A DNA stretch of 43,175 bases from a virus: positions 1-43,175 of IMG/VR virus record IMGVR_UViG_3300047564_003491; one strand, 5' to 3'. Numbering within the stretch: the stretch's first letter is position 1; every line of letters begins with the position of its first letter. Shown one piece after another: positions 12,901-43,175 of the stretch. The notes beneath the pieces were generated by a model. That model was given only the letters and a program-made list of their open reading frames with translations. It made no database searches and had not been told where the DNA came from. The position numbers and the translations under genes are program-made.

Positions 12901-14461
12901 CTCCTTTCTCCTTAGCCTTGTTGTATTCATTTTGAATTGTTTTTAGCTTTGTAAGCTGCTCTGGCAGAGCTTTTGCTGAATTTAACTGAGCATCAAATAT
13001 CTTCCCGCCCAATTCGTTGTTTTTGTTAAAATCTTTTTGCTCTAACCCAAGCTTTCTTTGACTATTAAGAAAAGACTCCAGATCTGAGTTGTCGTAGGCC
13101 CCAGACTGAATTGCATTGAGCCGCGAAACTGCGGCCCCTACCTCTGCAATGCTTTCGCCAAGCTTGGCCTCAAGTTTGATTTTTCTGTCAGATTGAATCT
13201 GAGCATCTCTAAAATCGCGACGCGCAATTCTTGTATCGGAGCGAGTAGTTTTTGCAATTTCTTGCGCAACTTCAAGCCTACCTTTATCAATAGCAAGAAA
13301 GCCAGGAGCAAGTTTTGCGCGAAGTTGATCTTTTTGCGCCTGAGATGCAAGTATTCCATCAATTTCAACGCTAATCCTAAAAAGATCTTCTCTTGTTTTT
13401 TTGATGTCTCTATCATACTTAATCTGCTCTTTTGCTGCCCTGACTGAACCAATCTCCACTGCAGGACCACGTGCCGATGGCGCAAGTTGCTGAACATCGA
13501 CGGTTTTGCCCTTTAGGCGTGAAAGCGTACCATCTACTTCCTTAATGGCCGAGCCAAGTGTTTCAAAGTTCTTACTTGCAAACGGAGTAAGAGTCCTAAG
13601 TTCTTCAAGCTTGTCTCTGTACGACTGAAGCCCCGCTTCACTTTTGGCAACATTGGGAAGCTGTGCAACGAGATCCCTAAGTGCATCACTAGGCCCTTCA
13701 AACTGCACCCCAAGATTCTGCCTTGACCCACTAAGGGCATCAGCAAGAACTTGATAGCGCTTAATGGATTCTCCAAAAGATTCTATTTCAGCCGTTGCGC
13801 CTGCTAGTGTAAATTTTCTGAACTGAAGACTTGCTGTATTGGAATTAGCCGCAAGCTCTTTGAAAGCTGCAGCGGCACTTTTAATCTGAACAGGAACAAC
13901 GCCGCCACCTAAGTCGTAAATTCTTGATGCACGATTCTGTTTCTTGATGTATTCGCCCGTAAGCTGATCGAGACGCCTAAGCGCATCTTGTTGTTTTTTT
14001 ATGCCTGCCAGGCTCCCGGCTCTTACATCATTTATATTTTTTTCAGCTTGCTCAAGCTCACCAAGAGAAGCGCTATATTTACTTTGCGTTTCCGCAAGTC
14101 CTTTTATTGCTCTATCTCGCGCTTCTACGGCTTGAGCGTATTTCTTGGTTGAAGTCCTTCCAGACTCCTCGGCTTTTTGAATTATTTTTACATTTTTAAC
14201 AATTGCATCCCCATATCTGTCGGCCTGTTTTGCAAAGTTTTCGGTAATTTCTTTTCTTTTTTTCGCAATACTATCCGAGCTTCGATTCAATAAACTTTCA
14301 ATTTGTTTTATATCTTTACTGACATCAGAAAGACTAAGATTGATCGGAGCTACTTCAAGTCTACTTGTAACTTGTTCAACCTTGCTAAGACTATCCAACA
14401 AAGAGTTGATTTTCTGCTGTCCACTGACAACTATATTAATTGCCGCATCAATGCTTGCCAT
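6941..14461 (-). CDS. Tail tape measure protein (2506 aa)
   Basis: The largest gene in the window. The N-terminal ~900 residues are alanine-, lysine- and glutamine-rich, predicted coiled coil. Around residues 1075-1110 lies a glycine/proline-rich linker (GGGGGVFGGGGGRPPGGPGG). A Gly/Ala hydrophobic stretch at ~1205-1250 (GAALGGGIGGAAGGFLGGGL) and another at ~2265-2330 fit membrane-inserting segments of tape measures. FDFGEMGEAGPEAIMPLKRG near residue 2370 is the conserved C-terminal tape-measure motif. It follows the frameshifted chaperone and precedes the minor tail genes. By the ~0.15 nm per residue rule it would set a tail near 375 nm, which is inference. No lysozyme or peptidase domain was noticed. 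Confidence 0.93.
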   Translation of the reverse strand: MASIDAAINIVVSGQQKINSLLDSLSKVEQVTSRLEVAPINLSLSDVSKDIKQIESLLNRSSDSIAKKRKEITENFAKQADRYGDAIVKNVKIIQKAEESGRTSTKKYAQAVEARDRAIKGLAETQSKYSASLGELEQAEKNINDVRAGSLAGIKKQQDALRRLDQLTGEYIKKQNRASRIYDLGGGVVPVQIKSAAAAFKELAANSNTASLQFRKFTLAGATAEIESFGESIKRYQVLADALSGSRQNLGVQFEGPSDALRDLVAQLPNVAKSEAGLQSYRDKLEELRTLTPFASKNFETLGSAIKEVDGTLSRLKGKTVDVQQLAPSARGPAVEIGSVRAAKEQIKYDRDIKKTREDLFRISVEIDGILASQAQKDQLRAKLAPGFLAIDKGRLEVAQEIAKTTRSDTRIARRDFRDAQIQSDRKIKLEAKLGESIAEVGAAVSRLNAIQSGAYDNSDLESFLNSQRKLGLEQKDFNKNNELGGKIFDAQLNSAKALPEQLTKLKTIQNEYNKAKEKGAKFSQQEESGLARTIELLSSPSFKIGPGTQKAVGEIISKFQSIRRLRVSEVPTGGGTSPAVLEGRRNRLLENALKLQGSLGDLEGKGASVANERLSLEQRILELKQAQGKASQADLEILASGLQEIRTGLQGARNDLQAESQLSGFGKSFDDFKQALSGQGKFFGDLSPAQAIDKIVREFNSASGGRSTSAGGAGDAGANVAKTFTDSIKSGASKAASAATAFSEAAKTAIKKAFGIASPSRFMIELVANLANTYVAEMQKAYPRIQAATDRAFGNETLLRDVKTLRATNTGFEEVGRTSTGFRPFPVGASTEGASREFQNMMYRFRGDMAELTTQPEIYKALLNALPDSRLTTDLAGAASRRANAAENLPYFMQAQREIGPGELENQIKNLAAEYFRGIRIPNPWVGPVGDYEEFINKVIASTEKLQTQLALPSSRIAGALPPASQTLSAIQQARVDQALLRSQQRSTSILSSDRFGGVGQSALPAASFGFMADPARLARLNPVIGNRLLPPAIDTTARAVEEAGSAADDGRNSLRRAVGEFFSRLGSAVTGLGGGGGVFGGGGGRPPGGPGGPAGLGGPDDFGDRLGAAAVRGAEGLLSLAELQRPAEVSTARLNLLSGILQEVYNSLDPMAEGADAVSAQLRRTIVSLEELSASRAPDADFLTRRTGSPRRAAAISEGLIGGAFPLLFGQGAGAALGGGIGGAAGGFLGGGLGFGLSLAGTALGTAFDTLVQKAQELGGALDDTSKTFDVVKERSLFSTKEIEKLATRLQEAGLTASASALAQEEVFKKIGPEGISALQGVETEADRANRAFAELGIQLQVLVAGPVAFFLEKITGALKDESLTIRATEVGKRLRDVGETEQAKRIFNTAGSFETARTSPFRFLPGFSPDKLRKDLEAEIATGEFLVPVKFDPKIDPIKAKEQLITAFQSALDAVSKQLQALDIAKGITDQSRNAAREQQDLDRQRADLLRSYEESIASIRLGVERKVQQERLNNLRLENQVYEQQGEVRLQQLRNQNALISQTLNGNQVGQQLFDAVAQFTEQQLSAENEIANRRRNLEAEIQSINLEAQNYKIDVAKQVADLDKNTARQVESIRLNVLRKNQDFDKNRFEAEKKIALLRLNVEKVGAQKTILETKRILPGVTDQQEKNALQQVVNSLQSLLETSNPNGFSSLFKRIQSTSAPQQVSFGSASIGSNVSTAGLASVTQAGIELRGRIDDLQNQISDLVSSGNLLALNKSLSDIADAGAKDAIKAFEDVAYELGAVIGAFDKSAKSPALQRFAVGVQKAIFSPGVQNSPLRNALIDLLKLYEELAEKNEKLAETNQFFTSALERSKDEISSLKDEINSAIVGTSAYEQALISLAARGLSPASAQATLLLESSKELDRLRDKVGVFTQVSGAASEFSGSLRGLIEDFVELGSVSELATRFADRLGKKSLGFALDIAFKPIEQQFEKQFFKIAEALGVDVKPEALKQLEETQALTGIVGSIDQKIAALIQILTKNQLTQSFSPLEKTTASVIDQVFSTQSKELQSAVDQTKKFFASGPSAEDAKSALLEFDEYVNKRLTPAAKVLPTAGTREYFNLGMEKFYEDVRKARKEIFGLSVPEFIPSPPTVSPKQLPQTRRMSDQIDRSTNRSANDYPEIGKFVGGGPDLPDNLLGINSAFGLATEMSPVPVKIVGAGIEQLGSLAQALPRTAAQQVGPSADQIVQDSNKVGSALEGIGKNTQKAAESTEQGGNELTKGLGKAVSGVAGAAAGIAAIVSGLESMKEGGAYGVITGLAAVFGGIASITGSFAALKKAAKGAYFSGGMANFSDGNIRKFANGGTFTNSIVSSPTLFDFGEMGEAGPEAIMPLKRGSDGRLGVSVYDGTRKAAGVDTSSSSGSRKGEEERMMEFAATAAAVRRQAMLQEGEAMQDSEMNMMRQMLTTTPPLNIRYESQVINNVEYVTREQAERLASESAKKGKDLAIGTLQASVRTRKRVGIS

Positions 14462-16790: not shown

Positions 16791-19700
16791 CTACTGCGCT
16801 TCCAAGTTGTCAACACGCTCTTTAAGGTTTTCGATTTCAGTAATTGCATCTTTAAGTGCCGACGTAAGTACAGCAACTAAACTACTTTCTGACATTCCAA
16901 GAAATTTTTCCTCTGGCAGTAGCTGGGTTCCATCCTCGTCAAATACTGCAGACTGCTTATTTTCTTTTACGATACCTCGCAGCCAATCTTTTTCACTTAA
17001 AACAGATTCCACTTCTTGAGCGATAAAGCCTACCTGGATTCCTTCTGTAAAATTATGAGCAGTGCGAATAACCACCTCTTGCCCTTCCTTATTAATATGC
17101 GTAACATCCTGCTGCGGCTTCCAGCTAAAGCTAACTGGACGCAAATTTTTGACTATATTTACGCAGTCAGAAAGCGTTGTAACATTTTCTTTGTACCTTC
17201 CGTCAGAAGTTGCAATAACATTATTGGTTGCAAAAATTTGACTATTTACCTGTAGCTTGTAAGCACCATTATCTGTCGTGCCATACCCTATGGTTAACTC
17301 CCCCTGCGCATTTAAGCGCATTGTTTCACCATTGCTGTTATACCAAACATGTACGTTTGGGTTAATTAAATAGTATGTCCACAGTGCGTCTACGCCAGCA
17401 GCTCGCCCTTTTACGGTAATGGTTCCATTCGTAGTGGTTAGCTCCATTTCCGGGTCATTTATATCACCGCTTGCGAAATTAAGTTGAATCCTCCCATCAT
17501 CGCGAAGAACTGTCCTAGGAGTCGGAGTTGTCCCACCGTCACTTGTTGTGGAAAAGACCAGCCTGCCAGGCATGTCGTTTGCGCCTGGAGTGTCATCCAC
17601 CTCGGCGCGAATACTTGCAGCTTCAATAAATTCAGTACCATCACTTCCCTGGAACGAAATGCGTCCAAGAGCGTCCCCATTGGAGACAACTGTCATGCCG
17701 CCAATTAAACTTGAACGATGTTTTGCAAATATATGAATAGGCTCAGCGGTTGAAGCTGCACCGTAAATCTGTCCAACAATTCTTTGAGTTTGGCTATTGG
17801 CTCCTTCGATTTGAAATAAGGCTGAATTTGTTGTATTAAAAAAGTTTGCGCGAGCTGCTGAAAGATTGATTAAAGTTCTACCTAGATTGTCAATCCGAAT
17901 TCTTTCATTTGCAGCCGTACTAACAGCTAAAGTATTTGCATCAGGACTCCAAATTCCAGTATCACTATCCGTGCCAGGGTAAATAGATGGAGTTGCTTCC
18001 GCGCCAAGCGGAAAACTAATTGCAGTGTCAAACCTACCAAGACCCGTAACATCTAGTGTTCCGGGTATATCAACATTGCTTGTCCACTCGCCAGCAGTAC
18101 CAGTAGCATTCGTCTGATAAAGCTGTCTTGCTGTGCCAAAGCCAATGCCAGCACCAGACGGCCCAGTCGCACCAGTAACCCCGGCGTCACCAGAACGCGC
18201 AAAATTAAGAGCAATCTGGGTGGTATCAGCAGGAAGCGTGCCAGAAATATAGCTAACACCTACACGGTAGTAGCCAATTAAGGCGGTAACACTGGTAACC
18301 TGAAAAACATTGCTAACAGTTCCGGTGCTCAAGTAGCTTTGAATTGTTAGATAGCCCTTGGCGGAATTAGTAGAATCATCCCAAGTAGCAAACCATGCAG
18401 TCTGATTGACACTATTGACATCAAGATTGTCAATGAAGATCTGCGTAACAGAAGCAATAGTCGCGTTGTTATAACGCAAAACGCCTGTTCCTGGATCAGA
18501 ATCAGTAGTTGTGGTGCTAAATGTATAACTAATTCCACTACGAACTCCAGTGGCTCCACTAACACCGATAGCCCCAGTCGCCCCACTGACACCAGTAGCC
18601 CCAATTGCTCCGGTCGCACCAGTTACACCGAGTGCGCCTGTTGCCCCCGTTACTCCAGTCGCACCTGTTGCACCAACTACCCCAGTTGCACCAACGGCTC
18701 CTGTTGCCCCACCAACGCCAGAGGCACCAGTAGCACCAACAGCTCCCGTTGCCCCCGTAGCACCCGTGGCCCCCGTCGCGCCAGACACTCCAGTCGCGCC
18801 AACTGCCCCAGTTGCCCCGGTTACACCAGCAGGTCCAGTTGCACCAACAATCGTGCCAACATTCACCCATAAGCTGCCGTCGTAAATCCAAAGATCTCCA
18901 GACGCCTGATCAATAACACCATTGCCAATAACTGCGCCGGGGAAGGCGGTATTTAAAGTGGTTTGAGGATTTGCTCCAACATCTGCAACTGAGCCAATAA
19001 TTGAAACCGAGGTACCAGCAGGACCTGTTACACCCGTGGCGCCCACTACGCCACTGGCTCCGGTTGCGCCAGTAGCTCCAGCCGCTCCGGTTGCCCCCGT
19101 CACGCCCGTGACACCTGTTGCCCCAGCTACGCCTGTTGCACCCGTGGCCCCCGTAGCTCCTGTCGTGCCCCCAGCACCCGTGGCCCCAGTTGCGCCCGTG
19201 GCCCCAGTTACACCCGTCGCTCCAGTGACTCCAGTGGCCCCTGTAGGCCCGGTAACCCCAATCGACCCAGCACCAGCAGGGGCGGGCTCCCACCTTTGCG
19301 TCGAAGCATTCCAGGACAGAACATCCCCGTCATCCTTGCCCGTACTCGCCTCAACATCATGTAAATCAGACAGCCTTCGCCCAACATCAGAGCGAATCAT
19401 CAAAGTACCATTACTTGCTTTACTGATAACAGCAGCAATTGGCAGTTTTAAATTAGGCGCTTGAGGCTCAACATTTACAAGACCCCCAGGCGTGGCTGGA
19501 TCACACCAGAGAATATCTCCCTCGTTGAAACTATTCGTATTAATTCCTTTAATTTTGCCAAAAGTAGTTACAAAACCGTCTTCTCCAGGAGCAATATTTG
19601 CTGAAGCAACGCCAAAGAATACATAGCCAGGCAATGATCCATTGGCTACCATTGGAGCGACAACAAGGCGCCCTGAGCTGCCAATTGTCCCGGCAAAGCG

Positions 19701-23197: not shown

Positions 23198-25869
23198 TAG
23201 CCCGACCTGTAGCAAAGAGTGAAGTCAACAGTAGCAGCGGTGTCGACGCTTATCGTTCCTGCGGCGTTACCAGTCGCAGGGCGGGTCACAAAGTTAGCAT
23301 AAGCCTGGCCGTCAATGACTTTTAGCCCAGGAGAAGTACCGGAAAATGTCAAGTTGGAATAGGTAATTGTCCCAACACCATCTGATGCAGCAGTAACAGG
23401 TAATCCAGCCAGGCGCATGACTCCTGTCCCCGTGTGGGCGCTCCAGATAACTATTCCTCTAAGAAATGTAAGAGCGCCAATAGTGATATATGTACCATCT
23501 TGAACACTGTAAGTACCCGTGCCAGCCTGCGTAGCTCCATCTATGCGAGGCGTGAAAGTACCTTCTTCATAATCATCTAAAGTATTGGCATCTGCAGAAC
23601 CAACTCGCGTTGCTGGAAATCCAATTCCATTAATACCAGTCAATACCTGCGCTGCACTCGCCCGATTTAAGGCAATTGCAGTTGTCCCGACGTAGGTTGT
23701 CTGACCAACTGCAGCAGCGCCCAGGGTTGCGAGCTGTGCTGCAGCGTCGGCATCGTCCAGCAGGGCTCTACCGGCAGCCGTGCAAGTGATCTCCTCGATA
23801 TCCCCCGCTCCCGCACTGCTACGCCCTAAAACTCGATCCGTTGCACTGACGTTCTGAATTTTGGAGTAGCTAACTGCATCGTTGTCGATAGTCCAGATCA
23901 CCCCAGAACTTGAAACCGTGATATCACCTTTGTCGCCATCCGTAATAACACCAGTAGCACCAGTGACACCGATCGGACCAGTGGCACCTTGCACACCCGT
24001 CGCCCCCTGAGCGCCTGTGGCACCAGTAATTCCAGCCACCCCAGTTGCACCAGTTGCTCCACTTACCCCAATTGCGCCCGTCGCACCAGTTGCTCCCAGG
24101 GCTCCAGTAGCACCAGTTGCACCCGTTGCTCCGGTTGCTCCAGAGGCTCCCACGACCCCCGTAGCCCCAGTCGCTCCACTGACACCAGTAACTCCAGTTA
24201 CTCCAGTAGCCCCATCTATTCCAGAAACCCCTGTAGCCCCCGTGACTCCCGCAGCTCCCGTAGCACCCTGAACCCCCGTAGCCCCTGTTGCGCCTGTAAC
24301 TCCAACTCCGGTTACCCCCGTGGCTCCGGTAGCCCCCTGAACCCCTGTGGCACCTGTGATGCCTACGCCCGTTGCACCAGTGACACCAGTGGCACCGATA
24401 ACGCCTGTTGCACCCGTCGCCCCTGCAATGCCTACCCCCGTAGCCCCAGTAGCTCCCGTAACACCTTCAACGCCAGTTGCTCCTGTAACGCCAATTACAC
24501 CTGTGGCGCCTGTAACGCCTATGCCTGTGGCGCCAGTGACACCTTGCACACCAGTAGCGCCCTGAGAACCCGTGGCACCCGTGACGCCCGTAGCACCGCT
24601 TACCCCGATTGCACCAGTGGCCCCAGTAACACCGATCCCCGTAGCACCCTGAACTCCAGTAGCCCCAGAGGCGCCAGCGACTCCAGTTGCTCCAGTAACA
24701 CCAGTCGCACCAGTTGCTCCCAGGGCTCCAGTAGCACCAGTGGCTCCACTGACGCCAATAACACCAGTTGCCCCGGTAATGCCAATTGCCCCAGTTGCCC
24801 CAGTTGCCCCTGTAGCACCGACGATGCCGGTAGCCCCCGTAGCGCCGATTCCCCCAGTTGCTCCAGTCGCCCCAGTCTGCCCAATCGGCCCTGTTGGGCC
24901 AACAATTTGACCAACGTTTACCCAAAGACCGCCGTCATAGACCCATAAATCCCCAGACGTTTCATCTATAACACCATTGCCATCTACGGCACCAGGAAAC
25001 GCAGTATTTAATGCAGTTTGAGGATTGGCACCTACAGTTGTAATTGATCCAATAATTACAACAGACGTACCAGCTGGGCCGGTTGCACCTGTAGCACCAG
25101 CACCAGTCGGGCCTGTTGGCCCAGCAACGCCAGTAGCACCAATCGCTCCAGTGGCCCCGGTAGCACCGGAAACCCCAGTCACCCCAGAGACACCGCTTAC
25201 ACCTGTAGCTCCTGTAACTCCAGCGACGCCAGTTGCTCCTGTAGTTCCCGCAATCCCTGTGGCCCCAGCAGCACCAGTGCTACCAGTCGCTCCAGTCGCC
25301 CCAGTCGCCCCAGAGGCTCCAGTTACTCCAGCAGCACCCGTTGCCCCCGTTGCCCCTGTAGTGCCAATCCCGGTAGCCCCGGTGACACCAGTAGGACCAG
25401 CGACGCCACTTGCCCCGGTTACGCCCTGAACCCCCGTAGCCCCGGTAGCGCCAGTAGCACCAATGGCTCCGGTTGCTCCGGTAGCCCCATCACTTCCTGA
25501 TAGACCGCTGACACCTGTTGCTCCAGTAATGCCAACTGGCCCAGTTGCTCCAGCTACACCAGTTGCCCCTATCGCCCCGGTTGCCCCTGTAGCACCAGCA
25601 CCAGTGGCGCCAGTTGCACCAGTAACACCGCTAGGACCAGCGACGCCACTTGCCCCCGTAGCGCCGTCGGCACCATCAAGCCCTGTCGCTCCGGTTGCCC
25701 CAGTGGCCCCAGCGACGCCAGAAGGGCCTGTCGCCCCAGGAGGCCCAATTGGCCCCTCTACAATTACTTTTGCTGCAACAACTTGCTTAACAGGTACAAC
25801 AACAGTCTTACCACAGTCTTCCGTGATAATTACTTTTACGATAGTATCTGATACATTTACAGATGTCAT
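23197..25869 (-). CDS. Collagen-like tail fibre (890 aa)
   Basis: Residues 1-37 form a short beta head. Gly-X-Y repeats (GATGATGAT type) run from ~38 to ~640 with one ~58-aa interruption containing [19 protein letters not shown], nearly the same module as in the S74 fibre. The C-terminal ~250 residues include [20 protein letters not shown]-like and [20 protein letters not shown] segments typical of phage fibre knobs. It has no S74 domain. It forms a long flexible trimeric fibre by analogy to known phage collagen-like fibres. Joined to neighbours by ATGA upstream and TAATG downstream. Confidence 0.9.
23940..25755 (-). repeat. Collagen-like triplet repeats within the 890-aa fibre gene
   Basis: A long array of 9-nt units (Gly-Ala-Thr, Gly-Val-Thr, Gly-Ile-Thr and variants), interrupted once at about 24896-25080 by the non-collagen module. 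Codons are varied enough that few units are identical at the DNA level, though short exact repeats are frequent. Confidence 0.9.
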
Positions 25870-26216
25870 GGCGCAACAGGCTTGGTATAACCCTCAGATA
25901 CATAGCCAATGCCTTCCATATAGTAATCTCTAAAACCAGACGAATCTTCAAGCAAGATATCATAAAAAATTTCGTCAGGCAAAACTTCTGTCTGTGTGTC
26001 TGTTAAAGAAATCTTGATTCTCCCCTCAACTCTATTAACAAAAGTAAAAAGAAAGTCCGCATATTTTACGGTTCTACCCTTGTTCCATGCTTGCGCGTAT
26101 CCGCTCCAGTTCGTGAAATTAAGAGGAACATCATTGCTGTCCGTGAATTGCAACGACAGTGCGTAATCAGCACGTCGCTGAATTTTAATGTTGTACTGGC
26201 CGGGACAGGTGCTCAT
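25866..26216 (-). CDS. Baseplate/fibre-attachment-like protein (116 aa)
   Basis: A 116-residue protein opening [20 protein letters not shown] then [19 protein letters not shown], the pattern of small beta domains (CPG.YNI.I..GA.Y.L.....D..G.P.NLTG) found at the N-terminus of phage baseplate upper-like and fibre-attachment proteins. It ends [14 protein letters not shown]. The ATG at 26216 is good; the 3' end overlaps the collagen-like fibre start as ATGA. Its likely job is anchoring the fibre to the tail, inferred from coupling and pattern. Confidence 0.6.
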
Positions 26217-26225
26217 GCAAGCAGT

Positions 26226-26291
26226 CTAGAAAGAGACGGCTTTGAGAGCAGCCCAAGCAATGTCACTCAAAGCCCCCCCCATGGCAAACAT
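26226..26291 (-). CDS. Possible micro-ORF with G8 tract (21 aa)
   Basis: A 21-codon minus-strand frame ATG TTT GCC ATG ... TAG encoding MFAMGGALSDIAWAALKAVSF, an amphipathic Ala-rich peptide. The second ATG is followed by eight consecutive G residues. No clear Shine-Dalgarno is seen, and it may be non-coding. It lies 9 nt before the ATG of the 116-aa protein, so it could be a leader peptide. Confidence 0.3.
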   Translation of the reverse strand: MFAMGGALSDIAWAALKAVSF

Positions 26292-26334
26292 CTAATCTGC
26301 GTCAAATTAGAAGTTCGATCTCAGCTGTCGAAGT

Positions 26335-26347
26335 CGGGGACTCCTGT
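26335..26347 (-). repeat. 13-bp direct repeat copy 1 after the membrane protein gene
   Basis: On the minus strand ACAGGAGTCCCCG. It follows the stop of the 60-aa membrane protein gene in the context CCT TAA CC. The same 13 bp in the same context follows the LamG-like gene at 26600-26612. Confidence 0.8.
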
Positions 26348-26355
26348 AAGGCTGG

Positions 26356-26538
26356 TTAAGGGTCACCCTTCCAAGCCTTCCTTAAAGGTTCATACACGAA
26401 GTCAGTCGTACCGAGAAGCGTGGTGAGCAGAAGAAGAGGAAGAGTTGCAACCATAGTGAGAAGGATAAATGCTCTCCTGATATGCAGATTTTGCAGCCAA
26501 GGTCTGTAAGGATTACTTTGAGTAACGGACGATTCCAT
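26356..26538 (-). CDS. Small membrane protein, holin-like size (60 aa)
   Basis: Sixty residues with one clear transmembrane segment at about 23-43 (AFILLTMVATLPLLLLTTLL), preceded by basic HIRRA and followed by a charged tail ending LRKAWKGDP. The ATG at 26538 has no obvious Shine-Dalgarno. Small one-span proteins near fibre genes may be holins, spanins or superinfection factors. The window holds no endolysin to support a lysis cassette, so the role is open. Confidence 0.55.
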   Translation of the reverse strand: MESSVTQSNPYRPWLQNLHIRRAFILLTMVATLPLLLLTTLLGTTDFVYEPLRKAWKGDP

Positions 26539-26556
26539 TGTTTTGCTGGAGGTAAG

Positions 26557-26608
26557 TTAAGGGATAGCTACTGCAAGCGCATTTACCAGCGTGGTTACGC
26601 GGGGACTC
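26557..26608 (-). pseudogene. Leftover 3' end of a paralog of the 268-aa adhesin gene
   Basis: The minus strand reads RVTTLVNALAVAIP then TAA. It matches the C-terminus RVTTLINAIGAAIP then TGA of the 268-aa protein (27411-28217). Over 43 aligned bases about 34 agree by eye. There is no complete reading frame attached, since the LamG-like gene ends just upstream in another frame. This looks like a remnant of recombination that replaced the body of the paralog. Confidence 0.7.
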
Positions 26609-26612
26609 CTGT
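26600..26612 (-). repeat. 13-bp direct repeat copy 2 after the LamG-like gene
   Basis: Same ACAGGAGTCCCCG string as at 26335-26347, again shortly after a CCT TAA CC gene end, here overlapping the 3' remnant of the 268-aa paralog. It could be a recombination footprint or an exchange point. Confidence 0.8.
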
Positions 26613-26620
26613 GGGTAGGG

Positions 26621-27340
26621 TTAAGGTACAGGCGGTGAATTTTTGTATGGATGACCAGAAGGCAGCAAAGACGTTAGACCTGATGTCCAATGTGCCCAGC
26701 CTTGAATCTTAGAGATAACGTCAAGACTAGGAGCCTGCTCGATGCCGATCAAAATGCGAGAATGCAAACTGACGCTGCTAGTTGTTGCGCTCATTGTTCT
26801 ATTAAAATTGCCAAGCCCTCCAGATCGAACACGACTGCTAAAGATTTCTCCATTTCGCGAAACAAAATGAGTCTGGTTATCAGCGTAATAAGCATAAGAG
26901 CTTACTGAGCTTACGAATGACGCAAAATTAACGAGAGCAGAAGAGCCGTCTCTGTACAGCCAGTTTCCAACGGCTAGGCCAAGCCTAGGGTTTAGGCCGG
27001 CGGTATTAAGAACGCACTGAGCACTGTCATTAACAGTCGCGTCAGGTATTCCCAAGTAAAACCAAAAAGCATATGCAGCCGGGAGAGTTATATTCAGATG
27101 ACCCCTGTCTCTAACGATGCTTCCTGCTCCATTGATACCAGACGTTGTGTAATTAGGTCTGAGGATTGCGGATGCTTGCGTTGCGTGGCGGCTATTGCCA
27201 CTTTTATCGCGCAACTCGCTGAGGTATCCATCGTTATCTAATGTGACCGTGCTGGCATCCGCAGCATCTAACCACAAATCCGTAGTAATCAGCGACGGAT
27301 CCCAGTTGACCTTCTGACTGCCCGTAATCAACCAGCTCAT
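26621..27340 (-). CDS. LamG/concanavalin-like adhesin (239 aa)
   Basis: The sequence LWLDAADASTVT at residues ~22-33, SELRDKSGNSRHATQ at ~41-55 and the terminal LLPSGHPYKNSPPV are a recognisable signature of LamG-like (concanavalin A fold) phage and bacterial surface proteins. It has no signal peptide, as expected for a virion protein. The ATG overlaps a 25-codon ORF stop as ATGA. It probably binds host surface sugars. The downstream 3' remnant suggests this gene was swapped in. Confidence 0.72.
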   Translation of the reverse strand: MSWLITGSQKVNWDPSLITTDLWLDAADASTVTLDNDGYLSELRDKSGNSRHATQASAILRPNYTTSGINGAGSIVRDRGHLNITLPAAYAFWFYLGIPDATVNDSAQCVLNTAGLNPRLGLAVGNWLYRDGSSALVNFASFVSSVSSYAYYADNQTHFVSRNGEIFSSRVRSGGLGNFNRTMSATTSSVSLHSRILIGIEQAPSLDVISKIQGWAHWTSGLTSLLPSGHPYKNSPPVP

Positions 27341-27414: not shown

Positions 27415-28217
27415 GGGATAGCTGCTCCGATGGCGTTGATCAGCGTGGTGACGCGGGCATCCAGCAGGGCGAGATCCAGGGATTCGCCGATGGAGTAGAA
27501 GGCTAGGCGGGCGTTGGTGTACGAGCCACCGGCTCTACGAAAAATAAGCAAGCTAGATGATTGCAGCGGTGTGGTTGCAGAATTAAGAAATAGGGCTGAT
27601 AACCTAGAGGCCCTAAGAGTGACTGAATTGATGGCATTGCGCGAAGCGCCAGACAAAGAACCAGCAAGGGGCACATAAACAGCACCGGGAGCGATGGCGT
27701 TGTCAGATTGAAGTCTTACCAAAAACTGAGGTACCGCTTGATTGTATAGCAGGATACGTCCATTGACTTCCGTTTCGCTGCCAATATATGTCGTTTCAAT
27801 GTTTCCCACTGTTGAGTGCCAAACAGCAGCATGAACATTGGAAAGAGGATCGGCATTGCTTGCCCTGTTGCTATTCAGAAACTTCGTGCTTCCATTCCCC
27901 ACCAGCCCCGTCTTCCGGTTGTAGTCCCCACTCACGAAGTTGAAGTTCGTCGGCGCCGTACCCACCAACGGCACCAACGCCCCATTCAACGTCCTCGCAC
28001 CAGCCAAGATGCAGCTTGCCTTGATCGCACTCCAAATCCCATCTGCCTTGCAGCCCAGCACGAAGTTATCAATGGCGATCTTGACCCGCTCCTCCAGCGC
28101 CTGGTTGTCAGCAGCCTCGACAGCGGTGATGTAGGCAGCCGCATCGGGGTCCATCGGCTGCCAGGTTTTGCGCAGGTTCAGCTTCGCCCCAGTCGGCTTC
28201 TGGATGATCAGCGTCAT
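27411..28217 (-). CDS. Fibre/adhesin protein (268 aa)
   Basis: A 268-residue protein with N-terminal helices (AAAYITAVEAADNQALEERV, then IDNFVLGCKADGIWSAIKAS) followed by a beta-rich LamG-like domain (FNFVSGDYNRKTGLVGNG, then AFYSIGESLDLALLDARVTT). Such proteins are frequent as fibre tips in cyanophages. The DNA is visibly more G+C-rich at the 5' end. A degraded copy of its 3' end remains at 26557-26608. Coupled by ATGA to both neighbours. Confidence 0.65.
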   Translation of the reverse strand: MTLIIQKPTGAKLNLRKTWQPMDPDAAAYITAVEAADNQALEERVKIAIDNFVLGCKADGIWSAIKASCILAGARTLNGALVPLVGTAPTNFNFVSGDYNRKTGLVGNGSTKFLNSNRASNADPLSNVHAAVWHSTVGNIETTYIGSETEVNGRILLYNQAVPQFLVRLQSDNAIAPGAVYVPLAGSLSGASRNAINSVTLRASRLSALFLNSATTPLQSSSLLIFRRAGGSYTNARLAFYSIGESLDLALLDARVTTLINAIGAAIP

Positions 28218-28414
28218 TCGTCACCCTCCGCAGGGCTAGTAGTGTCGTTGACCTCGACCGCTGCCCAGGTAGCAGATTCGCGTTCAGGCGTTGTCGGATC
28301 GTCTTGCGCAAACGTGCCGTCCTGTTCGCGTACTTGAGTCACGCGCCACAGTTGGCCATCGGGAGCTGTCCATTCCTGGCCGACGTACTCAGCCACAGGC
28401 AGCTCCCACGTCAC
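28214..28414 (-). CDS. Hypothetical small protein (66 aa)
   Basis: Starts at GTG 28414, overlapping the previous stop (GTGA), and ends overlapping the next ATG (ATGA). The sequence opens TWELPVAEYVGQEWTAPDGQ and LWRVTQVREQDGTF, like a small beta domain, and ends with an acidic tail. I do not recognise it; the context implies a fibre accessory. Confidence 0.6.
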   Translation of the reverse strand: MTWELPVAEYVGQEWTAPDGQLWRVTQVREQDGTFAQDDPTTPERESATWAAVEVNDTTSPAEGDE

Positions 28415-28794
28415 TTTCCCGGCGCCACAGGGCGCTGATAGAACAGGATCTCAGCCACGCGCTCGGGGGCGATCAACTCAGCAGCGGCCAGGGTTTGCAA
28501 CGCAGGCTCCAGGCGCGGATCGGTGAGAGACACGTAGGCGTTATTCACGAGGTCGGTAACGTACCCGCTCACTTCAGTGTGATCTGGAGCAGAGGCAAGA
28601 ATCGCTGCGTATTCGTCCGGCTTGAAGCGCATCACGAATGCAGCGCTGGTGATAATGCCAATCTTGAATAGGTCGGCGTACTGATTACCAGCATTGGTGA
28701 GCAGCTCGGTAGCGATCGCTTCGGCAGTGGTGTCGTTACGATTGCCGGCTTCGATCAGGCCGTCAAGTGCTTTTTGGGAAAGGGTGATGTTCAT
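28411..28794 (-). CDS. Hypothetical helical protein in fibre operon (127 aa)
   Basis: A 127-residue protein rich in alanine and leucine, apparently helical. GNQYADLFKIGIITSAAFVM and FKPDEYAAILASA are the clearest segments. It belongs with proteins that accompany fibre genes (possible assembly factor). No catalytic motif. The ATG at 28794 lies 21 nt after the 405-aa fibre stop, and its end overlaps the next gene by GTGA. Confidence 0.6.
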   Translation of the reverse strand: MNITLSQKALDGLIEAGNRNDTTAEAIATELLTNAGNQYADLFKIGIITSAAFVMRFKPDEYAAILASAPDHTEVSGYVTDLVNNAYVSLTDPRLEPALQTLAAAELIAPERVAEILFYQRPVAPGK

Positions 28795-28815
28795 GGGAAG
28801 GGGAAGCAGCAGGGG

Positions 28816-30033
28816 TTAGTCGGCTTGGCCGGTCATGTACTGAACCGACAGGTAGATGACGCCGGTTCCGTTGAAATTGCCGCCCGTGGCGGTCACGATG
28901 ATGTCTGTATCCGTGGGGAAGCACTCAATGGTGCCTGCGGTCCAGTTGCGGTTATCGCTGGTGGTGCCAGCAGCAGTGCCGGTGATACTGCCCCAGCGGT
29001 CATCGTCTGTAGCCGTGCCGATCTTGTAGCCGGTGGTGCCGTTGGCCGTGCCGAGGGCGGTGGTGACTTTGCTGGTGACACCCATTACGACAGCACCAGC
29101 AGGGATCAGACCGGCAGCGGTGACGCTGGCGCCAGAGACGTTGGTCAGCGTGGCGCGGGCTGTGGCAATCGTGACACGGTGGTAGTCCGTGGCCGAGGTG
29201 TAGGTGTCATAGATATTGGTCTTCTGGGCGTTGGTGCCGTTGCGCTGGGCCAGGGTGTTGGCGGCGTCCTCAATTAAGATTGTAGTATTACCCGTGCCAA
29301 ATAAAATTTGAGCGCTGGTTTTTAGAGATGATCCGATTACAATACCAGAAAATATCCAATTTCCCCCAGCACTGGGCGCGGCAGTGGAGAATGTAATTCC
29401 ACTCCATAGGGAAAGTGTCCCGGTGCTTGAAATCTTTGCAAAACTCGTCCCATTAACCTGCAGATCCAGCAGGTTCCCCGCAAACCCACTCGCTGCATTA
29501 ATGCCCAAGCCCGTGCCGCTGGTGCTCCACGCCGTGCTCGTGGTGCCCGTGGGCTCGATCAGCACCTGAGGCTTGGTGGTGGTGCTGGTGCCACCTGTAA
29601 ACCAGGTGCCGGTGAAAGCCTTAGCCGGGCTCGATGCAGTGGCGTTGTAGCTGTTGATAAAACTGCCAGAGCTGGTCAGGATGCTGCCGTCATAAGTGAG
29701 AGTGCTAGCCCCTGCATTTGCGCCGCTTGCGTTATACAGCAGTTGCCCACTAGAGCCTGCAACTAACCCGACGGTGCCAGTGGCATCAGGAAACGAAATC
29801 GTCCTGTTTGCCGTAGGTGTGACGAGCTGCAGGGTGGTGGTGTTGGCACCGCCGTCGTTTAGCTCAACGTCACCGCCAGTTGTCAGCTTGTTGCTGGTCT
29901 TGTTGAACACCAGGCCGCTGTCACCCGCCAGCTTGCCGCCGTCGTTGAACTGAACCTGTGTATCAGATCCACCAGCGGCAGTAGTATCTACCTCGTCAAG
30001 ATTGCCAGTGAACGGGTTGAAACGAAACGGCAT
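28816..30033 (-). CDS. Tail fibre protein, beta-rich (405 aa)
   Basis: Opens MPFRFNPFTGNLDEVD and then DTQVQFNDGGKLAGDSGLVF, a common N-terminal pattern of phage fibre proteins. Long Thr/Ser/Gly/Ala-rich beta repeats follow (GSSGQLLYNASGANAGAS, GTGLGINAASGFAGNL). The C-terminal ~130 residues (DYHRVTIATARATLTNVSG, VIYLSVQYMTG) look like a compact knob. No S74 domain. The final part is G+C-rich compared with the tail genes. Probable fibre or spike subunit. Confidence 0.72.
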   Translation of the reverse strand: MPFRFNPFTGNLDEVDTTAAGGSDTQVQFNDGGKLAGDSGLVFNKTSNKLTTGGDVELNDGGANTTTLQLVTPTANRTISFPDATGTVGLVAGSSGQLLYNASGANAGASTLTYDGSILTSSGSFINSYNATASSPAKAFTGTWFTGGTSTTTKPQVLIEPTGTTSTAWSTSGTGLGINAASGFAGNLLDLQVNGTSFAKISSTGTLSLWSGITFSTAAPSAGGNWIFSGIVIGSSLKTSAQILFGTGNTTILIEDAANTLAQRNGTNAQKTNIYDTYTSATDYHRVTIATARATLTNVSGASVTAAGLIPAGAVVMGVTSKVTTALGTANGTTGYKIGTATDDDRWGSITGTAAGTTSDNRNWTAGTIECFPTDTDIIVTATGGNFNGTGVIYLSVQYMTGQAD

Positions 30034-30036
30034 GGC

Positions 30037-30366
30037 TCAGCTCTTGGTGACGGAATCGAGCCGACTGCCGGTGTACGACAGCGTGAGTGTTGCAACGGTG
30101 GTGCCACCAGACCCCCCATCCTTATAAACAACACCGGTCAGATTTTCCCCGGTATAGCTCAAGGCAATAAAATCATGTGCAGGAATTTCCAGCCCTTGAA
30201 TTGTAGGAACAGGATTTCCGGTATCATTCTTGATTTCAATACCAGCCGCATCAAGCTCAAGAGTAGCCCCTTCAATATCAACCTTTACTGCCCCAGTATC
30301 AGTAACGCTAACCGGCTTATCCGCCCCATCCGGCCCACGCCCTAGTAAGAAAGCTCCCGCAGACAT
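30037..30366 (-). CDS. Small virion/fibre-base protein (109 aa)
   Basis: A 109-residue beta-rich protein: SAGAFLLGRGPDGADKPVSV, then DTGAVKVDIEGATLEL and a C-terminal VATLTLSYTGSRLDSVTKS. Similar small proteins precede fibre genes in phages of aquatic bacteria. It is the first gene after the terminator that follows the major tail protein, so it begins the fibre transcription unit. No enzymatic motif. Confidence 0.6.
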   Translation of the reverse strand: MSAGAFLLGRGPDGADKPVSVTDTGAVKVDIEGATLELDAAGIEIKNDTGNPVPTIQGLEIPAHDFIALSYTGENLTGVVYKDGGSGGTTVATLTLSYTGSRLDSVTKS

Positions 30367-39136: not shown

Positions 39137-40537
39137 CTACCGCCACCTCTGCCCACGTCCTAATCCGGCTGCGGGGCGTGGCATAGATTGCCAAACCAAA
39201 TAACGCATAGCATCGCCAAAGTGCGAATAATCAACAGTACCATTTTTGCTCGGTTTTAAACTTGAATCGTACGTCCAATTTTCGCACATCTCAACAGTAT
39301 CCCCACACGTAGCAGCATTAACAAGAATCTGCTTTTTGTGTAGATAATTGTTCACCATTGCAACCGTTTCAGCAATTGGGGGATTTCTGCGATCTGCGAC
39401 AACTTTCAGCCCAGCTTCTCGCAAAATATCATGATCACTTTGCGTGGAAGACGTACTTGCGTGTGACCCCGAGCTGTCGGGGTAAACAATAATCATCCCC
39501 CTGCTTACGTGCTTGATAAATTTGCGCTTGATGTGCTCCGCGAGAGAAAAAGTGTCTCTCACAATAACTTCATCAAAAATGTGCAAAGTTTGCCCAGCGT
39601 GAGAATTGCGCATGACAGCATATACGCTTGAGCACTTCCCGATATTGAAATCCGCCCCCACCAAGACAACTTCGCCCTCCTCTGCATGAAACACTTTTGA
39701 CGCATTTGCGTCTCGATTGAACTCTGAAAATACAGTTGCTGTCTCCAGATTTGTAAAAAGCCCCCTAACATAGGCGTCAACTAAGTGAGGGGGGTACTTT
39801 TCTAACAGGTCTTCGACATATCCATCTTGCAGGAAAGGATTCTCTCTGGTATCTGCACGGTAAAGCTGCTTGTCGTCACTTTTTTCTTTCTCAAAGAAAT
39901 TCCATACAAATTTCCGCCCCTCAGGCGTGGATGCAAAGCAAATTTGAGGGCAGTTCCCCACACGAACCCGCCCCTGCAGCTTGACCAGGGCGGCCTCTGC
40001 AGTCTCCTGTTTGACCGTATCCGCCTCGTCAATGACCAGGGAAGCAGCGTTGATGCCCACCAGGCGCTCGTAGTTCAAAAGCGGCAGCAAGAGGATCTGC
40101 GTGTCGCCGTTGGGCAGCTTCAGGATGATCTCGGGCGAAGGCGCAGTACGAAATGTATGTGGTATATCGTATTTATTCATCACTTTGAACCAAGTAGGCA
40201 AAGCCACCTGCTTGATCATCGGAAATGTTGGCTCTAGGTATATATGCTGCTCCCCCTGAGAACGAAAAGCGAGCAAGATAGCTTTCACGACTGAAGCATA
40301 CGACTTACCACTTCCTAGCCCCCCGACATAAAGCACATATCTATGATCAAAATCACAAACAAAATCTCTTTGATGCGGGAGCAAGTCATCAATAATTCTT
40401 TTCTCGCACTCGTTTACATCAAAACTACTGTAATTCTTTGACTTAAACTTCTTGATCAATGTTGTGTCATGAAAAAGCCCTAGCGTCTGAAGCGCCGCTT
40501 TGTCGGCATACCTCATGCTTCGGGCTTTGGCTGGCAC
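39137..40537 (-). CDS. terL: Terminase large subunit
   Basis: A 466-residue protein. Walker A GGLGSGKS at 72-79, Walker B LVIDEAD at 167-173, coupling motif STPEG at 203-207. The nuclease domain has D296 (GADFNIG), D354 (VYPDSSG) and a C-terminal acidic site in DYSHFGDAMRYLVW at 437-449. All catalytic positions look intact. It powers DNA packaging and cuts concatemers. The start is GTG at 40537, with ATG at 40516 as an alternative. It lies 37 nt after thyX in transcription order. No small terminase subunit could be identified upstream. Confidence 0.93.
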   Translation of the reverse strand: MPAKARSMRYADKAALQTLGLFHDTTLIKKFKSKNYSSFDVNECEKRIIDDLLPHQRDFVCDFDHRYVLYVGGLGSGKSYASVVKAILLAFRSQGEQHIYLEPTFPMIKQVALPTWFKVMNKYDIPHTFRTAPSPEIILKLPNGDTQILLLPLLNYERLVGINAASLVIDEADTVKQETAEAALVKLQGRVRVGNCPQICFASTPEGRKFVWNFFEKEKSDDKQLYRADTRENPFLQDGYVEDLLEKYPPHLVDAYVRGLFTNLETATVFSEFNRDANASKVFHAEEGEVVLVGADFNIGKCSSVYAVMRNSHAGQTLHIFDEVIVRDTFSLAEHIKRKFIKHVSRGMIIVYPDSSGSHASTSSTQSDHDILREAGLKVVADRRNPPIAETVAMVNNYLHKKQILVNAATCGDTVEMCENWTYDSSLKPSKNGTVDYSHFGDAMRYLVWQSMPRPAAGLGRGQRWR

Positions 40538-40574: not shown

Positions 40575-41204
40575 TCAATCAACCGCAAAGGCGGCCTCAG
40601 CAATAACAGGAAACTGCTCACAAAAAATCGCAAGACAGTCTTCGGCTACAACACGATGTTCAAGCTGTGTATCCTCTGCAGTCCTCAATTGCAGATAATG
40701 CACCCAACTACGCAAAGTCCCGTGCATATAAATAGTCGTAGGCGTGCATAAAGGCAAAATACGTCTGGCCGTCTCCTTAGCCACCCCAGCAATCAACATC
40801 TCTTGATAGAGCAAGTAACAATTTCTAATTGTAACCATTACTTGCGAATCAAAACGCTTTTTCGTCTCATCATCAAGACTGTCGTCACTCGACTGATGAT
40901 TCTTCACACTCTGCTTTCGCAATACTGGAATTTCAGCAGGGGCGGTAGCAGAATATCTTGTCGAAAATTCTTGATACGAAAATGATTTATGACGAATAAT
41001 CTGAGCAGCAATATCACGCTCTGTTTCAATTTTTACGCACATTGAGGCCATTTCAAATGGGCTCCAGTGTTTATGTTTAATTAAATACTTTAAAAGTCTT
41101 GCCCCGGTATCAAAATTATCTTCATTTGATGGATTGCTCACTCTCGCCATCTTGACAATCAGCCTCTCAGCCTCAGGCGTGCAGTGAATCAATTCAACAG
41201 TCAT
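40575..41204 (-). CDS. thyX: Flavin-dependent thymidylate synthase ThyX
   Basis: A 209-residue protein. The ThyX signature RHKx7S is present as RHKSFSYQEFS (71-81), with Lys where many enzymes have Arg. The C-terminal block ARRILPLCTPTTIYMHGTLR and TQLEHRVVAE is conserved. The enzyme makes dTMP from dUMP with FAD, NADPH and methylene-THF, so it would supply thymidine for phage replication. The ATG at 41204 is preferred over an upstream frame from 41225. Common in cyanobacteria and their phages. Confidence 0.9.
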   Translation of the reverse strand: MTVELIHCTPEAERLIVKMARVSNPSNEDNFDTGARLLKYLIKHKHWSPFEMASMCVKIETERDIAAQIIRHKSFSYQEFSTRYSATAPAEIPVLRKQSVKNHQSSDDSLDDETKKRFDSQVMVTIRNCYLLYQEMLIAGVAKETARRILPLCTPTTIYMHGTLRSWVHYLQLRTAEDTQLEHRVVAEDCLAIFCEQFPVIAEAAFAVD

Positions 41205-41282
41205 TGAGCGTTTGCAGCTCTGCACAGACTAGCCTGACGGGGGGCAATCTTGCAAGTCAATATTTGTTACTGATAAGAAATA

Positions 41283-41866: not shown

Positions 41867-42487
41867 TCAGGCCTTGGTTGCGGTCTTGGCGGGCTTAAGG
41901 ATGCGGTCTGCCATTTGCGCTAAGACATCGTGCATAGCTTGTTTCCCGTTCGGAGCGGCTTTGTAGAAACCGCTGTCGGTTCTCTCGACTTTGACGCGTA
42001 GCACGCTGCCGAGCTTGGTTGCAAGTTTGCCAGGAGTGCTAGCCCAGTCGCCTTGTGCTCCTGCTGCTGTAATTAGCTGCGCGCAGTGGCCTACATGGAT
42101 CTGCCCATAGACAGCGAGTCGAGCGCAAATCATCCCTAGTGCAGTCCAGTTGGCGAGGCCGATAGGGTCGGCTTCACCATTGGCGACTTTTTTTGGATCA
42201 GGACACTGCGGGCCGGCTTTGGCTAGGTGGGCTGGGAGATTGGTACGGGATGCTTTCTCCCGGACAATCCAACCCTGAGGCATCCACCCCAGTTTGACCA
42301 ATGCTCGCTCCTGCTCCGGTGTGATGGTGACGCCGGCCCAAGGGTCAACGTCTGCTGCTGGGGTGCTGGATCGGTTGGGAGTGCGCTGCGCAGCCGCTTG
42401 AGCAAATGCGGCCATCAGTTCGGCCATGATGTCGCCATCGCCCGTAGGGGCAGCGTTGGCATTGGTGCTGGTTTTATCGGTAGCCAT
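41867..42487 (-). CDS. Hypothetical protein (206 aa)
   Basis: The frame extends upstream to 42571, but that part runs through three strong hairpins, so the internal ATG at 42487 (MATDKTSTNANAAP) is chosen. There is an N-terminal disordered Ala/Asn/Pro region. A conserved-looking core (PWAGVTITPEQERALVKLGW, then LANWTALGMICARLAVYGQI and GKLATKLGSVLRVKVERTDS) follows, then a Lys/Ala-rich C-terminus. No family recognised. The core could be DNA-binding or structural. It is the first gene after the repeat array in transcription order. Confidence 0.6.
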   Translation of the reverse strand: MATDKTSTNANAAPTGDGDIMAELMAAFAQAAAQRTPNRSSTPAADVDPWAGVTITPEQERALVKLGWMPQGWIVREKASRTNLPAHLAKAGPQCPDPKKVANGEADPIGLANWTALGMICARLAVYGQIHVGHCAQLITAAGAQGDWASTPGKLATKLGSVLRVKVERTDSGFYKAAPNGKQAMHDVLAQMADRILKPAKTATKA

Positions 42488-42502: not shown

Positions 42503-42589
42503 GCCCGCCTCTGTGGCGGGCAATAGGGCACGGGGGAGTCGATCCCCCGCCTCTCGCGAATGCGTGCCCATAGGCTCCCCTTGGGGAGC
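42503..42589 (-). promoter_or_regulatory. Structured leader with three GC-rich hairpins
   Basis: Upstream of the 206-aa gene: GCCCGCC-TCTGT-GGCGGGC (42503-42521), CGGGGGA-GTCGA-TCCCCCG (42531-42549, within an outer GGGCAC/GTGCCC pair) and GCTCCCC-TT-GGGGAGC (42574-42589). No coding use is evident. From 42590 to 42778 I see only a TATATT box (minus, 42669-42664) and no gene. Confidence 0.55.
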
Positions 42590-42778
42590 ATGTCGGCAGT
42601 GGTTCTTTAGTTTTCAAGTTGCGGGAGGGGCGCCAGAGAGGCGGCTCCCTCGCCGTTGCAACCAATATACAGCATCTGAGGACCATTGGTGCGGATCGGT
42701 GCCAATGTAACGGAATCGAAACAATCCGCCCTTAGGCTCGGATCGACTCTCTCTATCTGTAACTGCGCCTTGCTTTAT

Positions 42779-42814
42779 CTGTAACTGTAACTGTAACTGT
42801 AACTGTAACTGTAA
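42779..42814. repeat. CTGTAA hexamer tandem array
   Basis: Six perfect head-to-tail copies of CTGTAA followed by CTGTTG. A separate TATCTGTAACTG occurs at about 42754. The hexamer also appears as part of the longer units downstream (TATCTGTAACTA), so both arrays share a core. Confidence 0.95.
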
Positions 42815-42845
42815 CTGTTGACGCGGCTTGTGATAACAATTACTT

Positions 42846-43175
42846 GCAATATATATCTGTAACTATAGGTATATTTAGCTAATCGTTATCTGTAACTAAT
42901 TATCAGCAATCGCTATGTGTAACTATTACCTGGAAAATGCTATGTGCAACTTAACAATCGCTATCTGTAACTATCAACCAGTAATTACTATCTATAGCTA
43001 TTAACTAGCAATTGCTATCTGTAACTAATTATCAGCAATCGCTATCTATATCTATCATCTAGGAATCGCTATCTATCATCTAGGAATCGCTATCTATATC
43101 TATATCTAGCAATCGTTATCTATATCTATTATCTAGCAATCGTTATCTATATGTATATATAGCAATCACTATCTA
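42846..43175. repeat. Iteron-like array of ~27-bp imperfect tandem repeats, continuing past the window
   Basis: About 12 to 13 units of 21-30 bp (mostly 26-27), each opening GCAATCGCTATCT or a close variant followed by an AT-rich part (TGTAACTATTA or ATATCTATTAT). There are no unique spacers and no reading frame. Units near 43021-43175 are most alike; those near 42846-42960 are more diverged. The array is cut by the window end. It may be a replication origin, a partition site or a phage DNA-recognition site. Confidence 0.85.

Follow-up and report, generated by a model that had tools for sequence, protein, structure and literature searches.

The terminase module of an uncultivated phage, probably a cyanophage, contains a non-coding array of 27-bp direct repeats whose core is nearly unchanged in a diverged relative. 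Judged from this conservation, the array is probably where a protein docks for replication or DNA packaging, and a replication-control site resembling oriR of phage SPP1 is tentatively favoured over a site of the pac or cosB type.

The stretch of DNA analysed (the window) corresponds to one entire IMG/VR record, 43,175 bp long and classed as 'linear'. The late genes that it carries belong to a tailed phage and are all read from the minus strand; their products include the large terminase subunit TerL, a DUF4055 portal, a Gp13-like capsid protein, an adaptor, a tape measure protein, collagen-like repeat proteins and the thymidylate synthase ThyX. Among the TerL matches listed, several Synechococcus and Prochlorococcus siphoviruses at approximately 35% identity are interleaved with enteric phages, and the host of this phage is probably a cyanobacterium. 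To our knowledge, neither the replication origins nor the packaging sites of siphoviruses of cyanobacteria have been well mapped. The genes for phage tail proteins contain long collagen-like coding repeats of 9/18 bp (approximately 18547-19241 and 24020-25323).

The right-hand part of the array, 12-13 units, occupies positions 42846 to 43175 and ends at the contig end; its core, TAGTTACAGATAGCGATTG, reads on the minus strand. Tandem Repeats Finder, run on the window, reported a 27-bp array at 42881-43174 with 11.4 copies and a score of 178. A pattern scan of the window located 12 units in one orientation between 42847 and 43163, spaced by 33, 27, 48, 27, 27, 27, 27, 21, 26, 27 and 26 bp, with one degenerate unit inside the 48-bp step. 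The original prediction of an imperfect array of 12 or more units of about 27 bp was thus borne out: 12 units fall within 330 bp of the window, against no more than six per 330 bp in 50 Markov shuffles of the whole window. A 20-bp pattern allowing up to three mismatches matched eight times in the window, always inside the array, and never in 100 shuffles. The array is real. The stretch is also AT-rich and contains no open reading frame of at least 80 aa, as had been proposed. Information content in the extended locus is 1-2 bits at each core position and mostly lower in the 8-bp spacer, in agreement with the predicted conserved 5' part and drifting 3' part when read in the orientation of the window. 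No DnaA box was found in the array, and no Rfam RNA family matched the array loci. A pseudogene reading was rejected: no coding remnant was seen, and the repeat and its flanks are non-coding in both phages described below.

With the 234-aa ORF adjoining the array as the query, two sister contigs were retrieved. These, L002 (G001; 31,960 bp) and L003 (G002; 12,129 bp), represent the same phage (species 1), with 99.5-99.9% identity to the window in long alignments, and both cross the array. The array continues for approximately 75-85 bp past the window end in both contigs, so that the rest of it, which extension of the sequence had been expected to reveal, was recovered. The full array of species 1 is approximately 400 bp long (about 9292-9725 in L002, whose coordinates are the reverse of those of the window) and consists of 14 or more non-coding units in the same direction, spaced mostly by 27 bp and in some cases by 26, 21 or 48 bp. 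One 21-bp unit present in L002 and L003 is absent from the window, a difference that is either real slippage or assembly collapse. The supposed junction with the structural half proved to be merely the end of the contig, and the array lies inside the terminase module, between the genes for the small terminase subunit (TerS) and TerL.

In L002 the module begins with TerS (7329-7988; phrog_6299, 2.5e-13), followed by a winged-helix (wHTH) gene (8287-8766), a 99-aa ORF, a second conserved tandem array of CATTCA repeats (9078-9250) and the 27-bp array. Next to the 27-bp array is the flank TTATCACAAGCCGCG (9736-9750; window 42822 to 42836, minus strand), then a hexamer array, (ACAGTT)6.7 (9754-9793; window 42779 to 42818, minus strand), and a single-copy 19-bp motif, ACCGATCCGCACCAATGGT (9872-9890; window 42682 to 42700, minus strand). 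The 19-bp motif holds the odd palindrome ACCAWTGGT and may be a candidate cos-like, recombination or operator site. The gene for a 206-aa protein lies just downstream of the array (10085-10705; window 41867 to 42487, minus strand, with a possible ORF start at 42571), followed by a 95-aa ORF, ThyX (Thy1; window 40575 to 41225, minus strand) and TerL (12035-13435; window 39137 to 40537, minus strand). The 206-aa protein has no family in Pfam, PHROGs or NCBIfam, and was found in this phage group only among the viral contigs searched. Elsewhere in G001 (L006, 1-9800), many small plus-strand early ORFs read a similar stretch ending '..RSM' before the probable start codon, suggesting an upstream motif common to early ORFs, possibly a promoter or ribosome-binding element.

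A second species is represented by a contig of 98,034 bp (G003; L011). Protein identity between G003 and species 1 is 89% for TerL, 87% for the portal, 73-75% for TerS, 65% for the 206-aa protein and 34-38% for the wHTH protein, while fourfold-degenerate sites are identical at 47% in TerL, 40% in the portal and 50% in TerS; by this measure, neutral sites between the two phages are near saturation. At the equivalent place in G003, at approximately 60.7 kb, there is an array of 15.3 copies over 400 bp. The G003 consensus, TAGTTACAGATAGCGATTG, and the species 1 consensus, TAGTTATAGATAGCGATTG (with C in several units), agree over 18-19 positions, and each array is made up of direct repeats that all point the same way, 27 or 21 bp apart. 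Over the whole element, 762 8-mer repeat pairs were counted in species 1 (shuffle maximum 118) and 937 in G003 (shuffle maximum 27). The longest exact stretch common to the two array gaps is 23 bp. TerS, the wHTH gene, CATTCA repeats (5823-6008 in L011), the 27-bp array, TTATCACAAGCC directly beside it, ACAGTT-type repeats, the 206-aa gene and TerL follow in the same order in both phages. The period of the CATTCA array is 18 bp in one phage and 13 bp in the other, and the hexamer array is replaced in G003 by a 12-bp ACAGTTGCCAAT-type array. Genes between TerS and TerL have been exchanged, with ThyX, which has no match in G003, present in species 1 and a 576-aa gene in G003. The remaining gap sequence is unalignable between the phages except for the 19-bp motif, which in G003 retains 18 of its 19 bases as a single copy in the opposite orientation (61222-61245; about 6608-6630 in L011).

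The core is nearly unchanged although the two phages agree at only 40-50% of fourfold-degenerate sites, a pattern for which purifying selection on sites bound by protein is the best explanation, and the comparison supports a binding-site array under selection. The original prediction of selection on a binding site is strengthened accordingly by the 19-bp core kept in this relative, and a wHTH gene adjoins the array. It is quite unlikely that the array is functionless satellite DNA, whether selfish or neutral, that replication slippage has spread. A hexamer-like substructure within the repeats and the 21-bp unit gained or lost between near-identical contigs are features expected of such DNA, but the core and the order of the three repeat types are preserved between phages near neutral saturation.

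In the collections that were searched, no occurrence of the element came to light outside this small phage group. When 2.9 million viral contigs and 84,980 genomes were scanned for exact 17-mers of the core, arrays turned up in the two phage species only, and the other 17-mer matches were isolated coding or chance occurrences. Relatives of TerL, the 206-aa protein and the wHTH protein among the viral contigs were confined to G001, G002 and G003. No comparable array was found in cyanophages with related TerS or TerL or near wHTH homologues, no relative among 66 contigs carried the full 19-bp motif beside an array, and targeted literature searches turned up no account of a comparable array. The possibility that the 19-bp motif is a host attachment sequence was rejected, as four one-mismatch matches in 300 genomes are at chance level and no conserved host site was seen.

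No second cluster of the core, allowing up to four mismatches, was found in G003 or in species 1 without its left arm, and the array therefore looks like one cis site rather than an operator network. An operator array, on which the wHTH protein would bind cooperatively and control both its own gene and the late unit (206-aa, ThyX, TerL and structural genes), is unlikely. The array does occupy non-coding DNA where the late operon begins, beside the MarR-like wHTH gene; against this, core copies are absent elsewhere in either genome and promoter-like sites are not enriched (2 found against 2.1 expected, and 4 against 4.7). Arrays of this length are unusual among operators. Promoter or terminator arrays were also considered and rejected, as neither was enriched at the array.

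The wHTH gene encodes the nearest candidate binding protein. An alignment of 10 family members (A5) shows a general winged-helix region and a tail resembling 'INP.L.SVGG..RR'. Pfam matches in the family were to MarR_2 (7/10), HTH_36 (5/10) and RepL (PF05732; 4/10, the best at 4.6e-5); the protein of the window phage matched HTH_36 only, at 23.9-24.1 bits against a cut-off of 25. PHROG matches of the family were weak and mostly to 'replication initiation', O-like initiators included, and matches to PDB structures were weak and MarR-type. AlphaFold2 models, with a mean pLDDT of 48 and 45, fell short of what a fold search needs; their secondary structure is compatible with a winged helix. In the T7-like cyanophages S-SRP02 and S38C3 (in S38C3, across the record ends), homologues are encoded immediately before TerL, and in three picocyanobacterial genome islands they adjoin genes of the VapE or D5/DUF3854 primase type; no comparable array is present at the T7-like cyanophage or island loci. 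The islands (L053, L054 and L049), with an integrase in L049 and a serine-recombinase-like ORF in L054, are possible phage satellites or integrative elements. Such a neighbour is compatible with replication, packaging or regulation, and does not decide between these functions.

Iterated sites next to a small wHTH gene are the layout of centromeres of the TubR-tubC and ParR-parC type. The locus resembles this layout, and the original prediction included a partition site. It is nevertheless very unlikely that the array serves a phage-plasmid as a plasmid-type partition site to which a small wHTH adaptor like TubR or ParR binds. Unlike in those systems, no match to a partition NTPase of the ParA (AAA_31) or tubulin/TubZ type was found in G003, G001 or the window, three fragmentary contigs, by searches whose positive controls performed well; in the ParM search the controls themselves were silent. 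No integrase scored above its cut-off in these three contigs, all of which are fragments.

Packaging is an equally serious reading that the original prediction did not contain. The array could be an enlarged packaging initiation site of the cosB or pac type, on which TerS, alone or with the wHTH protein, would load TerL; TerL would then cut nearby, possibly at the single-copy 19-bp motif. This is possible but doubtful. Although genes in this region have been exchanged, both phages have the array between TerS and TerL, the partly palindromic 19-bp motif adjoins it, and the wHTH family is found directly upstream of TerL in two T7-like cyanophages. TerS is 75% identical between the phages, with a conserved N-terminal HTH-like stretch, against 34-38% for the wHTH protein, while the DNA core has hardly changed; TerS is therefore the better-conserved possible reader. 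Terminase genes contain or adjoin the packaging sites of phages (PMC4669245, PMC6316719). In lambda, wHTH dimers of TerS bind R sites in the 120-bp cosB next to cosN (PMC4669245), and the pac site of SPP1 overlaps the TerS gene (PMC6316719). The array shares with lambda and N15 cosB and with SPP1 pac the presence of repeated protein-binding sites in the terminase module and a candidate single-copy cut site nearby, but differs in having many more sites, all direct and downstream of TerS. Its 14 or more direct repeats over 400 bp far exceed the three R sites of lambda cosB, one of which is inverted, or SPP1 pac, and it follows TerS at a distance of approximately 1 kb instead of lying within that gene or immediately ahead of it. 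Furthermore, TerS and TerL are adjacent, with no such array, in cyanophages with a related TerS (S-CBS2 and S-CRES3). No known cos or pac site fits the array closely.

The reading we favour over a pac- or cosB-like site is that the array is a replication-control site resembling SPP1 oriR, a cis-acting iteron array at a single locus; by analogy this is plausible, though somewhat short of probable. A phage DNA-binding protein, either the small wHTH protein encoded beside the array or a distant O-like initiator, would bind the 19-bp cores cooperatively and assemble side by side on the array, and the AT-rich DNA would be easily opened. Replication would start at the array, or an arriving fork would be arrested there, and fork arrest could bring about the switch to concatemeric, recombination-dependent replication that feeds the adjacent terminase. 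We infer both the identity of the binding protein and replication as the consequence of its binding.

This proposal is based on direct repeats of 27/21 bp in the same orientation with a nearly identical core in two diverged phages, the lack of a second core locus, and the low stability of the DNA: no 400-bp stretch of the 98-kb G003 contig is less stable than the array, and the species 1 array overlaps the least stable 400 bp of that phage. It is also based on the weak RepL and O-like matches of the wHTH family and its VapE/D5-type primase-helicase neighbours in islands. In G003 an O-like initiator (29402-30235) and a DnaB-like helicase (27895-29397) are encoded approximately 30 kb from the array. 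No clustering of repeats was seen within or around this initiator gene, so repeats do not place the origin elsewhere, and the array is the only AT-rich non-coding array found in G003. The Erf, RusA and exonuclease genes of this phage would suit recombination-dependent replication. Two further G003 genes encode a sigma-70-type RNA polymerase sigma factor of its own (3070-3969, minus strand; phrog_351, 3.9e-52) and, close to the helicase gene, a 674-aa protein of the large uncharacterised family phrog_1735 (24711-26735, minus strand; 1.1e-209), which is likely part of the replication module.

Several observations argue against the oriR-like reading. GC skew does not turn at the array: in G003, where the array is at approximately 60.7 kb, the skew minimum is at approximately 40 kb, although that is also where transcription diverges. 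The position between TerS and TerL points equally to packaging. The distance of the recognisable replication genes and the lack of a DnaA box weigh against it, as do the missing second repeat copy in G003, unlike SPP1, and the wHTH matches, which are weak and equally MarR-like, with relatives in T7-like cyanophages that adjoin TerL without an array. The adjacent rep, parAB or primase genes and the skew change anticipated by the original prediction were not found. That prediction had named a pseudogene, or distance from replication genes with no skew change, as grounds against it; the array is indeed far from the recognisable replication genes with no skew change, but no pseudogene remnant was seen, and in SPP1 a second origin lies approximately 12-13 kb from the first (PMC6316719, PMC3485210). 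An origin retains as support the initiator-like wHTH gene, the AT-rich direct repeats and the oriR precedent.

In SPP1, oriL and oriR each consist of direct repeats and an AT-rich unwinding element, and oriR, the late origin, has been proposed to stall forks and trigger concatemer formation (PMC6316719, PMC3485210). Like these origins, the array consists of AT-rich direct repeats in a phage with a DnaB-type helicase and recombination genes, and like oriR, which is far from oriL, it is outside the initiator gene. The SPP1 repeats are bound by gp38. The array differs in its 14 or more units, two further repeat types and an adjacent wHTH gene, and in that the O-like initiator gene of G003 has no matching repeats within or around it. 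A small wHTH gene directly beside directional iterons is also a feature of iteron plasmid origins that use RepL or another wHTH initiator; the present locus differs from them in its weak wHTH family membership, its position in a phage late module and the lack of any partition genes found. It is improbable, though conceivable, that the three ordered repeat types, together with the genes for the wHTH and 206-aa proteins, make up a compact and hitherto undescribed site coupling replication to packaging in the terminase module, where one nucleoprotein array would arrest or start replication and mark the start of packaging by TerL.

The array is a specific, testable candidate for a replication origin or packaging site, with a candidate binding protein encoded next door. 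If it is a late origin or fork barrier within the terminase module, the concept, drawn from SPP1, of a link between replication mode and packaging would extend to another host phylum.
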